Assembly: GCF_036370855.1 (NCBI RefSeq)
Contig: NC_088105.1
Span: 8,685,619-8,749,618, forward strand
Direction of reading: 5' to 3'
Source of the DNA: Dromaius novaehollandiae
Taxonomy: Eukaryota > Chordata > Aves > Casuariiformes > Dromaiidae
Length of the DNA stretch: 64,000 nucleotides
This document shows, piece after piece, positions 4,066 to 43,831 of this stretch; position 1 is the stretch's first letter; each line of letters begins with the position of its first letter. A program made the position numbers and the translations under genes. A model generated the notes under the pieces. It was not told where the DNA came from. It worked only from the letters and a program-made list of their open reading frames with translations, and searched no databases.

Positions 4066-5053
4066 GGTGTATTTATGCCCTAGAGTCCTCCAGTAAAAAG
4101 TGGGGGGGGGGGGGGGTGGAAAGCGATAGTCTGTTGTAATCCGAAGGGGACCCCAATAAAGAAAGAAAACCACGAATCTTTAAATAGGAAGTCATGGAGA
4201 AAATGAAGTACCTAAATTTTAAAAAGGGGGGAGGGGAGAGTGGTACAGAATCATTAGCTGCCAGGACAAGTCAACAGAAGGACCGGCAACAGCTGACAAG
4301 GTAAATCTGTGCCAGGCACAGATGTCACCATGCTCCTGCTGCTCTGCACACTGCTGCTGAGATCTGGGAAATGCAGATTTTCTGCCCGCTGAAGAGCTGG
4401 ATACCAACAACAAATGCAGGACAAATGCAGAAGATCCAGTCACCTGGCAGAGACAACAGGCGAAAGCACAACCAACACCTCGGAGCTCAAAGGGGTGCGG
4501 AAGGCTGGGCTGAACAGCCTGGGGAGCAAAAGAGGTGGTCAAAGCCTTCCTCACTCCAACCTCCGGAAAGAATTTGCTTTCTGCTGTTTGTAGCACACGT
4601 TTACATGTTATTCAACCATGAAGTCCTGCTGACTTCTACAAAACAGCCCACGTGGCTAAAGTTCAGCAGGAACTTTATGCTGACAGGGTCTAATTTTAAC
4701 AGGATCTCCTTGGGGGAACACAAGAAAAAGAAAGATTACCAAACCCTGAGAAAGTCTCCCACACACCTCCTCCCCTACTGCCTCCCCAACAGCATTTTTC
4801 CAAAAGAGAAAAAGGAAACAGCAATACGAGTATTTAAAATAATGTTTTATAATCAATACTGAATACAGAAGTGAGTCAAAATATGACTAAAAGGTTTCAA
4901 GATTTGATAGAGACAGACACAGGTATAAAAATTATTGAACCAAAATAATCTGGATCCGTTAGAAAACAATCATTTAAAGATGCCTTATCTAGGTGCCATT
5001 TACTTCTATGTGCCAGGTACTAAAATAATCAGTAAGTTGCAGCACTGGAATTA
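4066..5053. other. Intergenic between NPL 3' end and DHX9 promoter
   Basis: This stretch has ordinary composition, a 14-16 base G run near 4101-4117, and no recognised gene. It separates the predicted NPL polyadenylation site from the DHX9 CpG island. Confidence 0.5.
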
Positions 5054-35943: not shown

Positions 35944-36082
35944 AGTATCAGGTATTACCACCAAAGCCCTGGCTTTTTTACTGCTGTTCATGTAGTGTAA
36001 CCCCTTGTTCTGCAATCTTCCACCTATTAAGACAGACACAGGAACTGTTATATAGGGCACCAAACTGACAAGAAGCTTGCTG

Positions 36083-36159
36083 GGAACAACTCAGACCTTA
36101 GATTTTCATCTCTGTTCAGAGAGAGAGTTCAAGCTAAGGTTGTAATCATCACTTGTTCC
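36083..36159 (-). ncRNA. SNORD81: SNORD81 box C/D snoRNA
   Basis: Box C is GTGATGA (36152-36146) and box D is CTGA at 36094-36091. A perfect 7-bp terminal stem, GGAACAA/TTGTTCC, closes it. The guide CTTGAACTCTCTC next to an internal CTGA (D') matches mammalian SNORD81 (28S rRNA). It is the last snoRNA of the host, as in mammals. Confidence 0.93.
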
Positions 36160-36310
36160 AGCAACAGAATTTCCATATTGCTGCAGTCAGGAATACTCAC
36201 CTTTTTGGTTCCTCATACAGTAGTTTCAAAGCTGCCTCCCAACCTAAATCAAGAAAACAGGCTTAACATATGCAGTAGCACAACTGCAAAAAGCTTCCTT
36301 CAGCAACTAT

Positions 36311-36390
36311 GTAACCTCAGAAAGAATGGAACGGAAATGGGTGATATCACAGCAATTCATCTGGCAGAATCAAATTTCATCACTGGCTAC
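36311..36390 (-). ncRNA. SNORD47: SNORD47 box C/D snoRNA
   Basis: Box C is GTGATGA (36383-36377) and box D is CTGA at 36320-36317. Terminal stem GTAGCC/GGTTAC has one G-U pair. The guide CCGTTCCATT and the internal TGATATCAC block match mammalian SNORD47 (28S rRNA). It ends 78 nt before the next acceptor. Confidence 0.93.
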
Positions 36391-37023: not shown

Positions 37024-37098
37024 AGCCAGATACAGACAGGAGTTGTGTGCTTGTTACTGTGCACTCTGCTGAACTATGTCACCAATGTTGTATTGGCT
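37024..37098 (-). pseudogene. Decayed SNORD80-like snoRNA relic
   Basis: ACATAGTTCAGCAGA, the SNORD77/80 guide core, is intact (around 37078-37063). CTCCTGTCTGTATC corresponds to the SNORD80 box D region, but box D reads CTGT instead of CTGA. Box C reads TTGGTGA instead of ATGATGA. A short AGCCA/TGGCT end stem remains. It lies between SNORD79 and SNORD47, the usual SNORD80 position, about 60 nt before a possible acceptor (near 36964). With both boxes damaged it is unlikely to form an snoRNP. Confidence 0.7.
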
Positions 37099-37624
37099 GA
37101 AGTGGCCTCATCACTGATTCTGTTTCTTTACTACTTCCACTGTGTGAAGACATCAAGCAATAAAAGCCATTTTCTTTAGTCACCATGGCCACAACTTCTG
37201 TTCATACAAACAAAACTCTACATGAAGTCTGCCAGTGCTTACAGTTCAGGGATTGGGAAGGTACCAAGTCTGCTCTAAAAGAGCCCTTCCTGTTAAAGTC
37301 TAATTCAGAACTACATAGAAGTTAATTCTTGCTTGGCAGGTATCAGATTTATCCCCACAGCAAGTGCAACTGGAAGGTTCAGAATACCATGAAGGCATGC
37401 AAATCAGATCCATTACAGTACTATCCTCAGGCACTCCTAGCTAGGCATTCACCCTAAAGGCAGTATTTCACCGGTTACCAAACCCCGCAGTCTGTAAATT
37501 GTACTCTACTCTTACCTCAGACAGAAGCTAGTCCTGCTTCACACAAATTTCCCATGGGCGTCACCCTGTAACAAGTGACTTTATTAACATTCTCCTTGGC
37601 AATGTCTCAGTAGTTGGTTTGAGT

Positions 37625-37713
37625 GCATGTACTGTTTCAGTATAAGAGTCCTCCTCAGCCTCTTTCAGAGAGATTCCCATTGCTTAGAATTAATCATCAT
37701 GAACAGTACATGC
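37625..37713 (-). ncRNA. SNORD79: SNORD79 box C/D snoRNA
   Basis: Box C is ATGATGA (37700-37694) and box D is CTGA at 37640-37637. An exceptional 12-bp perfect terminal stem, GCATGTACTGTT/AACAGTACATGC, closes it. The guide ATGGGAATCTCT before an internal CTGA is the SNORD79 element that pairs with GAGATTCCCA in 28S rRNA, next to the SNORD74 target. It ends 58 nt before exon 37565-37516. Confidence 0.95.
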
Positions 37714-39140: not shown

Positions 39141-39214
39141 CAGGGTCTTTCAGTAAAGAATAGTCCACATTACTGCTTTCAGGTCAGACATTTGACAACA
39201 TCATTATAACCCTG
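39141..39214 (-). ncRNA. SNORD78: SNORD78 box C/D snoRNA
   Basis: Box C region AATGATGT and box D CTGA at 39153-39150. The terminal stem CAGGGT/ACCCTG is perfect over 6 bp. The internal CAAATGTCTGACCTGAAA matches mammalian SNORD78. It ends 84 nt before the acceptor of exon 39056-39012. Confidence 0.93.
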
Positions 39215-39570
39215 TAAGACACCTGCCTATAGGATTTCCACATTCTTAACACAGTACTCAAATCATTTGAGTCCCAAAATATGAGACTGAGCCCCCAGCA
39301 CTTTGGGTAAGTGAACCCTGCAGGCTGCTAACCTGCATCTGTTGGTAGAAGTAAAAAGCAAGAAAATCCACAAGGAACTTCCTGCAGCTACAAAATGGGA
39401 TTAGAATCACACATCAAGTAATCATGACCAGTATGATCAGTTTGCTGGCAACTTACATTTACTGGTAACTCTACCAACTGCATGATTTAACAGCTCCATG
39501 TTAGCCCTGCAACAAAATGAAGAGTCAGGACAACCCACAAACAACCACAGAAAAATGAAATCTAGTCAGA

Positions 39571-39645
39571 TGCCTGAAGTCAGATAGAGCTAATTGCAGA
39601 CCTCCATGATTGAAGTCAGTTTATTCACATTTCATCACACAGGCA
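39571..39645 (-). ncRNA. SNORD44: SNORD44 box C/D snoRNA
   Basis: Box C is GTGATGA (39638-39632) and box D is CTGA (39583-39580). The outer stem TGCCTG/CAGGCA is closed through a small internal loop. GGTCTGCAATTAGCTCTA closely follows mammalian SNORD44, which guides 18S rRNA methylation. It ends 64 nt before the acceptor of exon 39506-39457. Confidence 0.93.
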
Positions 39646-40998
39646 GCTTACATTGTCAGTCACTCGACAGCTATCTACTTTAAAACTGGTATGGGGAAGA
39701 GGGCAAATATTCAAATAGTGCTATCACAGCAACTTAATGAGCTCATAGGCACACAGTAAAGAAAGAGTTTAGCACAAACTAGTCTGCCAAGGTAGGGCCT
39801 TATCCAGCAATTCTCCCCTTAAGCATCCTTTGTTTTTAACTGAGATGCAAGCAGCAGCCAACACCAGCCCCCCTTAGCTTACACATAGCTTAAGACTTCA
39901 TTTCACAGGCATATTCTAGGCCTATTTTTACCCTAGTACTTGCAAAGTTAGAAGAAGTACTTACATCATGACTGGAAACACTCTGAAAGCCTGCAAAGGA
40001 AGAGTTACTGTTAGATAGGCTCCAGCAGAAAATTTTAGCATAAGAACGACAGTTATAGTGACAGACTGTATCAGTGTTTAGTCAAGTTTTATCCTCATTG
40101 GGATCAGAGACCTGATTCAACATCACTTACAGCAGGCTGTTACGCTCCCTATCCCCATCCACAAGGAAATCTCATAAGCTCTCTCCCAGTCCTCTCCAGC
40201 ATGTTTGAGAAGTTCTCAACTCCAGAGACTAAAATTGCAGAAGTGAGAAAGCTTCTAAATGCAGAGTTCAGTGATATGAACTTTCTGCAAACATCTAACT
40301 TGGTATAACCCAGGAAAAGCATTTCAGAGAGTGGATGCATAGTATTGTTGCATTCAGCATTCAAGGCATTTAGTCTTGTCAGAAATACTCTAAAATTCTT
40401 TAGCACTCTGCAAAACCATTACTTAATGCTTTTACTGCAAAGCACAGACGATCTGGCCTCAAAGGCACAGACAGGGTACTGATCTCTCTGCTTTGGATTT
40501 TCCAGAACCACAATGCAGGGCCTCATATCTCCAAATGCCAGCTCTCAAACTCAAATGAACAGCAGCACTGTAGCAGACTTATTACACAAATGCGGCACAG
40601 CCAAACATAGTATCCATCCCAAAATATGTTCTACAATTACCTTCAGTTAGAAAGGCCTTGTCTTCACCAACAACAGTTGAAATAGTTTCTTGTGCTAGAC
40701 CCAGGCATCCTACATCTTTCTGTCCAGGGCAGCCTGCAAAGCAACAGTACTTATAGCACTTGGAGGACTAATATCTGACGAACCAAGATTTTAAGCTACC
40801 AAAATAGTTAGCAAATTGGTTCCACTGTGTTTGTGGTTAATTTCACAAGAAAACACATTCTTACATTCTATTTATCTGACTAATTTTTTAATGCTTAGCC
40901 CATTTCCTGATCTTCTGAGACAAATTTTCAAGAGACATTCATGGGCAAAGGTAGTAGTACTTCATTCTCAACTGCCAAACTTAGACTACAATACAGGA

Positions 40999-41082
40999 GG
41001 CTGCATCAGATAGGAGCGAAAGACAATAACAGCGTGATCATCACAGGTCATCTGTTGAACTATGTTGTCATCATACGCAGCC
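40999..41082 (-). ncRNA. SNORD80: SNORD80-family snoRNA, copy B
   Basis: Box C is ATGATGA (41074-41068), box D is CTGA at 41010-41007, and an internal TGATGA serves as C'. The terminal stem GGCTGC/GCAGCC is perfect. It carries both SNORD80 guides: ACATAGTTCAACAGA (28S, A1521 region in human numbering) and GTCTTTCGCTCCTAT (28S, G1612 region). It ends 84 nt before exon 40914-40865. It occupies the host interval where mammals carry SNORD77. Confidence 0.9.
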
Positions 41083-41248
41083 TTCACAAGTCAGGGATAT
41101 AAATTTTTCTAGAGATTTAGGCAATACAGTATTTACCTTGCACAGCTTAATGCTTCATCTTCCAGTGTCTGCAAGAAAAAAGGAAAGATGAGATTTCCAT
41201 AGCCTTCTTGGCATGAACTAGACCTCCTGAGAAGAGATCACAACAGCT

Positions 41249-41339
41249 AGATACATCAGACAGGAGCGAAAGACAAAACTCTGTTCATCACAGGATATTC
41301 TGCTGAACTATGTTATCATCACTGTATCTGCTTTGGAAT
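41249..41339 (-). ncRNA. SNORD80: SNORD80-family snoRNA, copy A
   Basis: Box C is GTGATGA, box D is CTGA at 41259-41256, and an internal GTGATGA serves as C'. The terminal stem AGATACA/TGTATCT is perfect over 7 bp. Guides are ACATAGTTCAGCAGA and GTCTTTCGCTCCTG. It is a close paralogue of the copy at 40999-41082, about 170 bp away with one short exon between. It ends 80 nt before the acceptor of exon 41168-41137. Confidence 0.92.
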
Positions 41340-41697
41340 ATAGTTGTTCCAAACTACCACCCCTTGCAATAGCTTTGAACAAAACAGAAGTCCTATGAAT
41401 AAAAAATGTCAAGAAATATTCGAGAGTCTTTTGAATATTGGCAAATATCAATCGTTTTCTGTGTATTAGTGAAATTAATCCCAAAGCACTTCAATTTTAC
41501 ACACCCAAACCTTTCCACTACATTTTTTTCAGCAGCTCCACAGAAAAAAAATCCATGGATTTTATGAAATTTCTTACCAGGTAGTCTTTCCTTCATAAGT
41601 CTTCCAAGTGCATGATTCAAATCCTGCAAAGAAAAAAAACACGCAGCTTGTGAAATCTATGTTCAGAAATCAAAACATCAGGGAGCACTCAGCTGTC

Positions 41698-41783
41698 GTG
41701 CCTCTCAGGTGGAAATGACGGTGGTAGAAGTTCTCATCATTCTCTTGGTCAAGAGTAGCAAATAAATGTCATCATTGTGGCAC
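41698..41783 (-). ncRNA. SNORD76: SNORD76 box C/D snoRNA
   Basis: Box C is ATGATGA, box D is CTGA at 41708-41705, and an internal ATGATGA is C'. The ends GTGCC/GGCAC pair. TTTATTTGCTACTCTTGA is shared with mammalian SNORD76 (28S rRNA). It ends 74 nt before exon 41623-41578. Confidence 0.93.
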
Positions 41784-42030: not shown

Positions 42031-42097
42031 AGCCTCAGCATGGAGTTTTCAGAAATCACTTCTGTCCACTACTCTTGAAATGAAAACATCACAGGCT
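42031..42097 (-). ncRNA. SNORD75: SNORD75 box C/D snoRNA
   Basis: Box C is GTGATGT, box D is CTGA at 42038-42035, and TTTCTGA is the D' element. The stem AGCCT/AGGCT closes it. AAGAGTAGTGGACAGAAG matches the mammalian SNORD75 guide (28S rRNA). It ends 77 nt before exon 41953-41913. Confidence 0.92.
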
Positions 42098-42819: not shown

Positions 42820-42903
42820 CCATGTCCAGCTCAGATATGTTGGCATTCATCAGCTTCTCAGATGTCCCTACCAACATAGTTTTCATCATGTGCAGGCACA
42901 TGG
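42820..42903 (-). ncRNA. SNORD74: SNORD74 box C/D snoRNA
   Basis: Box C is ATGATGA, box D is CTGA (near 42834-42831), and an internal TGATGAATGCC is C'. The outer stem CCATGT/ACATGG is perfect over 6 bp. GTTGGTAGGGACATCTGA is the SNORD74 guide, pairing with TGTCCCTACC in 28S rRNA. It is the most 5' snoRNA of the host, as in mammals. A CAG acceptor lies about 78 nt beyond, near 42741, though the exon it would open lacks an obvious donor. Confidence 0.92.
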
Positions 42904-43824: not shown

Positions 43825-43831
43825 TTATATA
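43825..43831 (-). promoter_or_regulatory. GAS5: GAS5 TATA box and 5'TOP start
   Basis: TATATAA on the minus strand lies 27 nt upstream of a C followed by an unbroken pyrimidine run (CTTCCTTTC, 43804-43796). This is the layout of a 5'TOP promoter. GAS5 is a known TOP-class host gene whose RNA level tracks translation and growth state. Exon 1 then runs to a CTGTG|GTGAGT donor at 43761. Confidence 0.8.

Follow-up and report, generated by a model that had tools for sequence, protein, structure and literature searches.

Two SNORD80-type small nucleolar RNAs at the SNORD77 position of a GAS5-like locus in Dromaius novaehollandiae and a probable relic at the canonical SNORD80 place

In the gas5-like host gene of chicken, the intron-4 counterpart of U77 is replaced by two U80 cognates, GGgCD36a and GGgCD36b, which reside in introns 4 and 5 and are predicted to target 28S-A1469 and G1560 (Shao et al., 2009; PMC2653536). 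The small nucleolar RNAs (snoRNAs) U44, U78, U79, U47 and U81 are found in introns 7, 8, 9, 11 and 12 of that gene, respectively, and intron 10, between the introns of U79 and U47, has no C/D snoRNA among the available rows of the published table (PMC2653536). Here we describe the corresponding locus in a stretch of 64,000 nucleotides from Dromaius novaehollandiae (NCBI RefSeq assembly GCF_036370855.1, contig NC_088105.1, positions 8,685,619 to 8,749,618 of the forward strand; hereinafter the window), the minus strand of which has the appearance of an avian-type GAS5 gene at about 35.9-43.8 kb. Two intact SNORD80-type snoRNAs, denoted c1 and c2, lie between SNORD76 and SNORD44 in this locus; they match chicken GGgCD36a and GGgCD36b in guide pair and in the order of the other GAS5 snoRNAs, so that the layout with two SNORD80 copies is already known from chicken. 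The Dromaius locus adds two small points to the available text of PMC2653536, namely a SNORD77-like end of c1 and a probable relic at the canonical SNORD80 place.

An origin of mammalian U77 from a U80-type RNA was already proposed for the chicken system, with Danio and Xenopus covered as 'data not shown' (PMC2653536). One sentence of the same paper states that U77 lost the adenine site, whereas its table lists the adenine site as shared and the guanine site as confined to U80. We take the sentence to be a slip because the table says otherwise and so does PMC6856654, where A1521 is the site common to U77 and U80. Methylation of A1521 was reduced when U80, but not when human U77, was mutated, and that study interprets the two RNAs as mutual backup (PMC6856654).

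Both snoRNAs were recovered by Rfam cmscan, run at gathering thresholds over all 64 kb, as members of RF00309 (snR60/U80; gathering score 41), with spans of 41248-41330 (minus strand, 62.0 bits) for c1 and 40998-41083 (minus strand, 63.1 bits) for c2. Boxes C, D′, C′ and D and a terminal stem are present in each, the stem comprising 7 Watson-Crick pairs in c1 and 7 in c2 under a rule based on box C, box D and stem (hereinafter the C/D rule). In c1 (41249-41329), the stem AGATAC (41324-41329)/GTATCT (41249-41254) encloses box C (41316-41322), guide 1 (41303-41312), D′ (CAGA, 41299-41302), guide 2 (41260-41274) and box D (41256-41259). The corresponding elements of c2 (40999-41082) are the stem GGCTGC (41077-41082)/GCAGCC (40999-41004), box C (41068-41074), guide 1 (41055-41064), D′ (41051-41054), guide 2 (41010-41024) and box D (41006-41009). 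The initial annotation of this DNA, made from the sequence, had already recognized two intact SNORD80-type snoRNAs with the human guide pair in this interval, and both points are borne out; its coordinates hold for c2, but it extended c1 to 41339, about 10 bases beyond the end of the stem. The human SNORD80 guide cores, CATAGTTCA and GTCTTTCGCTCCT, are exact in both snoRNAs; outside c1 and c2, the window contains a single further CATAGTTCA, at 37070-37078, and no further GTCTTTCGCTCCT. Folded as single strands, both snoRNAs somewhat exceed shuffled sequences in stability (16 of 200 shuffles equally stable for c1, 5 of 200 for c2). Thus described, c1 and c2 would be typical members of the U80/snR60 family, box C/D snoRNAs with two guides, presumably freed from introns of GAS5. 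Guide 1, which lies above D′, is predicted to direct 2′-O-methylation of 28S A1521 in human numbering (A1469 in chicken), and guide 2, above box D, that of G1560 in chicken numbering, which we take to be human G1612.

The two snoRNAs were initially placed each in its own intron, and this is likely the case, given a predicted exon between them (41137-41168, minus strand; acceptor TTTCTTGCAG/ACACTG, donor AAG/GTAAAT); like the other exons and introns of the Dromaius locus, it is a prediction from splice-site consensus rather than from RNA, and the GAS5 intron numbers are provisional. Downstream of c2, acceptors were read by eye at about 90 and 274 bases beyond box D, neither of which was listed by the splice-site rule. 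A possible extra exon lies just past c2 at 40865-40914 (minus strand), with an acceptor-like TTTGTCTCAG read by eye and the donor AAT/GTAAGA; it would set c2 about 90 bases ahead of the acceptor, the other measured GAS5 snoRNAs being 59-88 bases ahead of theirs.

Several features connect c1 with mammalian SNORD77. Of the two snoRNAs, it alone lies in the predicted intron directly after SNORD76, and it shares with human SNORD77 this slot, guide 1 with D′, and the AGATAC start. The ends of human U77 and U80 are available from published primers (PMC6856654 and PMC10743478). Of the 18 bases at the human U77 3′ end, an unbroken run of 14 recurs in c1, and the human SNORD77 3′ end CTGTCTGATGTATC is matched by c1 only, not by c2. 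Furthermore, c1 passes the cut-offs of both the RF00309 and the SNORD77 models. In a search of the whole genome with the SNORD77 model (RF00591; E-value up to 10; the best 66 of 293,056 first-look candidates scored), c1 was the sole match among those listed, with 38.3 bits against a cut-off of 35, and c2 was absent from the listed matches; at this loose E-value, 4 of 14 control genomes also gave a match, none of them above the cut-off. The consensus of the SNORD77 model lacks guide 2, whereas c1 has it: over guide 2 and the box D region, c1 agrees with the human U80 string at 20 of 21 aligned bases. The second half of c1 is therefore SNORD77-like at its 3′ end but not in its guide, and because guide 2 is intact we term c1 the ortholog of the slot rather than SNORD77 in the mammalian sense, with a single guide and a second half unlike that of SNORD80. 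Two considerations weigh against this assignment. The 5′ end of c1 is closer to that of human U80 (17/18) than to that of U77 (11 of 13 aligned bases, of 18), and the proposed orthology draws on position, short ends and one model.

In the human gene, SNORD80 sits between SNORD79 and SNORD47. In Dromaius, no intact snoRNA was found at this canonical place: the SNORD79-SNORD47 interval gave no Rfam match above threshold, and the C/D rule gave 0 candidates in a 1043-base intron stretch, which includes one exon base. The pair of c1 and c2 thus replaces SNORD80 and is not an addition to it, and an extra SNORD80 pair beside a working canonical copy was rejected on the same two negative results. Across the window's own 1.47 Gb assembly, c1 and c2 were the only RF00309 matches among those listed, a lower bound because scoring covered the best 61 of 192,864 first-look candidates; none of 14 control genomes gave a match in this search. 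The gap at the canonical place was overlooked in the initial annotation, the interpretation of which holds in part: the pair it described is a replacement, in an arrangement already published for chicken (PMC2653536).

The canonical place appears not to be empty. At 37028-37094, on the minus strand like the snoRNAs, lies a sequence in which guide 1 and D′ are intact (37065-37078, 14 bases exactly as in c1) and stem-like ends are kept, but which is without box C at the usual place, without a CTGA box D and without guide 2. A GTGATGA is found further upstream at 37108-37114; if this is the old box C, the relic would also contain an insertion. When the window was scanned with a 98-base c1 query, this sequence ranked third after c1 and c2, with a score of 41 (the next place scored 37), a value that one of 2000 dinucleotide shuffles of the 1043-base stretch attained; in the local alignment with c1, 53 of 75 aligned bases are identical and the ends are in register. 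An Rfam scan of 211 bases at this place gave a single match at E-values up to 10, to SNORD77 (21.6 bits, E 0.11). On this evidence, which is moderate, 37028-37094 is probably a decayed snoRNA of the SNORD80/SNORD77 type.

Taken together, these observations are best explained, with a fair degree of confidence, if c1, as the avian ortholog of mammalian SNORD77, has kept the ancestral guide pair, the next intron holds an old second copy, c2, and the former copy at the canonical SNORD80 place has decayed. In mammals, both guides would have been kept at the canonical place and guide 1 only in the SNORD77 slot. In the simplest history of this kind, the amniote ancestor would have had two copies with both guides; guide 2 of the first slot would then have disappeared in mammals and the second slot would have been lost in birds, a course of reciprocal degeneration after intragenic duplication in which mammals and birds shed guide 2 from opposite copies. 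The fully spelled-out version, with one duplication in GAS5, loss of guide 2 from the first copy in mammals, loss of guide 2 and then of the RNA itself from the second copy in birds, and a renewed duplication into the next bird intron, has in our estimate an even chance of being correct. A descent of SNORD77 from a full SNORD80-like copy, one of the two origins initially envisaged, gains support from c1, which occupies the SNORD77 slot and combines the SNORD77 3′ end and model score with both guides. Having a SNORD77 end together with the two SNORD80 guides, c1 plausibly represents an intermediate stage in the origin of SNORD77; the relic, if genuine, would reveal which of the copies was abandoned in each lineage without either 28S methylation losing its guide. 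The main pattern nevertheless repeats, probably in a second bird, the published chicken layout, and the added value is modest; the available text of PMC2653536 mentions neither a decayed copy at the canonical place nor a SNORD77-like end, and a relic could be contained in its Figure 4A.

The origin of c2 is the part of this history most open to another reading. Both guides of human SNORD80 are present in c1 and c2 alike, but at the 3′ end the identity is with c2, which equals the human U80 end over 21 of 22 bases with zero mismatches and agrees with the human U80 string over guide 2 and the box D region at 21 of 21 aligned bases (primers in PMC6856654 and PMC10743478). Accordingly, c2 could be the canonical SNORD80 itself, moved into the intron beside c1 and leaving a relic or nothing behind, rather than a copy of c1. 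The c2 3′ end holds CCTATCTGATG where c1 holds the SNORD77-like CCTGTCTGATG, and the RF00309 consensus has CUAUCUGA, as c2 does; likewise, CTATCTGA of that consensus is found in c2, and CTGTC is common to c1, the relic and the SNORD77 consensus. The intron flanks of c1 and c2 are unlike each other (the upstream score was reached by 224 of 1000 shuffles, the downstream score by 803 of 1000), which speaks for such a move. The argument, however, leans mostly on one diagnostic base, c1 and c2 have the middle CCTGTGATGA in common, and the relic carries the c1-like CTGTCTG rather than the c2-like base, so that we regard a relocation of SNORD80 as possible but distinctly less likely than an old copy. 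The stems of c1 and c2 also differ, and because the two are alike only within the snoRNA, the duplication is either old or moved the snoRNA alone. A recent duplication of a unit including the exon was rejected given the dissimilar flanks and an exon unlike the others: the exon at 41137-41168 resembles none of nine other predicted exons at the 20-in-1000 level (exons 1, 9 and 13 were left out, and the comparison used ends one base short).

The relic, too, has to be weighed against chance, in which case the canonical place either lost SNORD80 without a trace or never had it in this lineage. A number of results point in that direction and thus against the decay of a canonical copy. The 211-base stretch was picked after a resemblance had been seen by eye, its score lies under the SNORD77 cut-off of 35, and neither the broader Rfam scans nor the SNORD77 search of the whole genome lists the relic. 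With a c2 query, the relic scored 34, which was reached by 24 of 2000 shuffles and tied with two unrelated places in the window; a shorter c1 query brought its score to 35, with the next place at 33, a drop towards background which indicates that the outer stem matters. MAFFT places the 3′ end of the relic out of register, and the fold is no better than that of shuffled sequences (161 of 200 as stable, z 0.87). Still, a chance match would have to account for the right strand, the position between SNORD79 and SNORD47, 14 exact bases of guide 1 and D′, ends in register with c1 and a score attained by a single shuffle in 2000, and we consider it unlikely.

The other origin initially envisaged, in which the slot of the amniote ancestor held a single-guide SNORD77 that was overwritten in birds through gene conversion by SNORD80 and duplicated, along with an exon, thereafter, could yield the mosaic seen in c1, in which SNORD80-like guides stand between an AGATAC start and a SNORD77-like 3′ end, if only the middle was converted, but is quite improbable because it requires conversion, duplication and subsequent loss of a donor, no intact donor SNORD80 is among the matches listed for the genome, the canonical place holds a relic at most, the stems and flanks of c1 and c2 differ, and guide 2, being part of the consensus of RF00309, a family with members outside vertebrates, is likely ancestral, which makes its loss in mammals the simpler course.

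The remaining snoRNAs complete the order SNORD74, 75, 76, c1, c2, 44, 78, 79, 47, 81 on the minus strand. Besides the two RF00309 matches, the gathering-threshold scan of the window gave SNORD74 (42823-42900, 78 bits), SNORD75 (42031-42097, 62.6 bits), SNORD78 (39146-39209, 61.7 bits), SNORD79 (37630-37708, 76.1 bits) and SNORD47 (36313-36388, 60.3 bits), for a total of seven. A permissive Rfam scan of 33.0-44.2 kb yielded, in addition, SNORD81 (36082-36160, 45.8 bits, under the cut-off of 50), SNORD44 (39578-39643, 37.7 bits, under the cut-off of 40) and, at the SNORD76 place (41699-41782), a best match to the SNORD24 model (35 bits, cut-off 41); with scores below gathering, these three were assigned from position and alignment. 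When compared by eye, the 5′ end of SNORD76, TGCCACAATGATGACA, is identical to the 18-base human U76 primer over its first 16 bases (PMC10743478).

Near the expected start of GAS5, a TATATAA is found at 43825-43831 (minus strand), one of 18 in the window; the chicken 5′TOP string quoted in PMC2653536 is absent when up to 3 mismatches are allowed. The predicted exons 4 (41578-41623, minus strand) and 8 (39457-39506, minus strand) share 25 bases with 84% identity, a likeness reached by 0 of 1000 shuffles (45 pairs among 10 exons compared), which hints at an old duplication of an exon or an exon-intron unit inside GAS5. Finally, the C/D rule, applied to both strands of the window, gave 6 candidates, c1, c2, SNORD79, SNORD81, 4677-4749 and 40066-40132. 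The last of these is a C/D snoRNA-like sequence on the minus strand in provisional intron 6, with box C GTGATGT, box D CTGA and 5 Watson-Crick stem pairs (14 of 200 shuffles fold as well), and it may correspond to the 'novel snoRNA-like sequence' in intron 6 of the chicken gene that was described as chicken-specific (PMC2653536).
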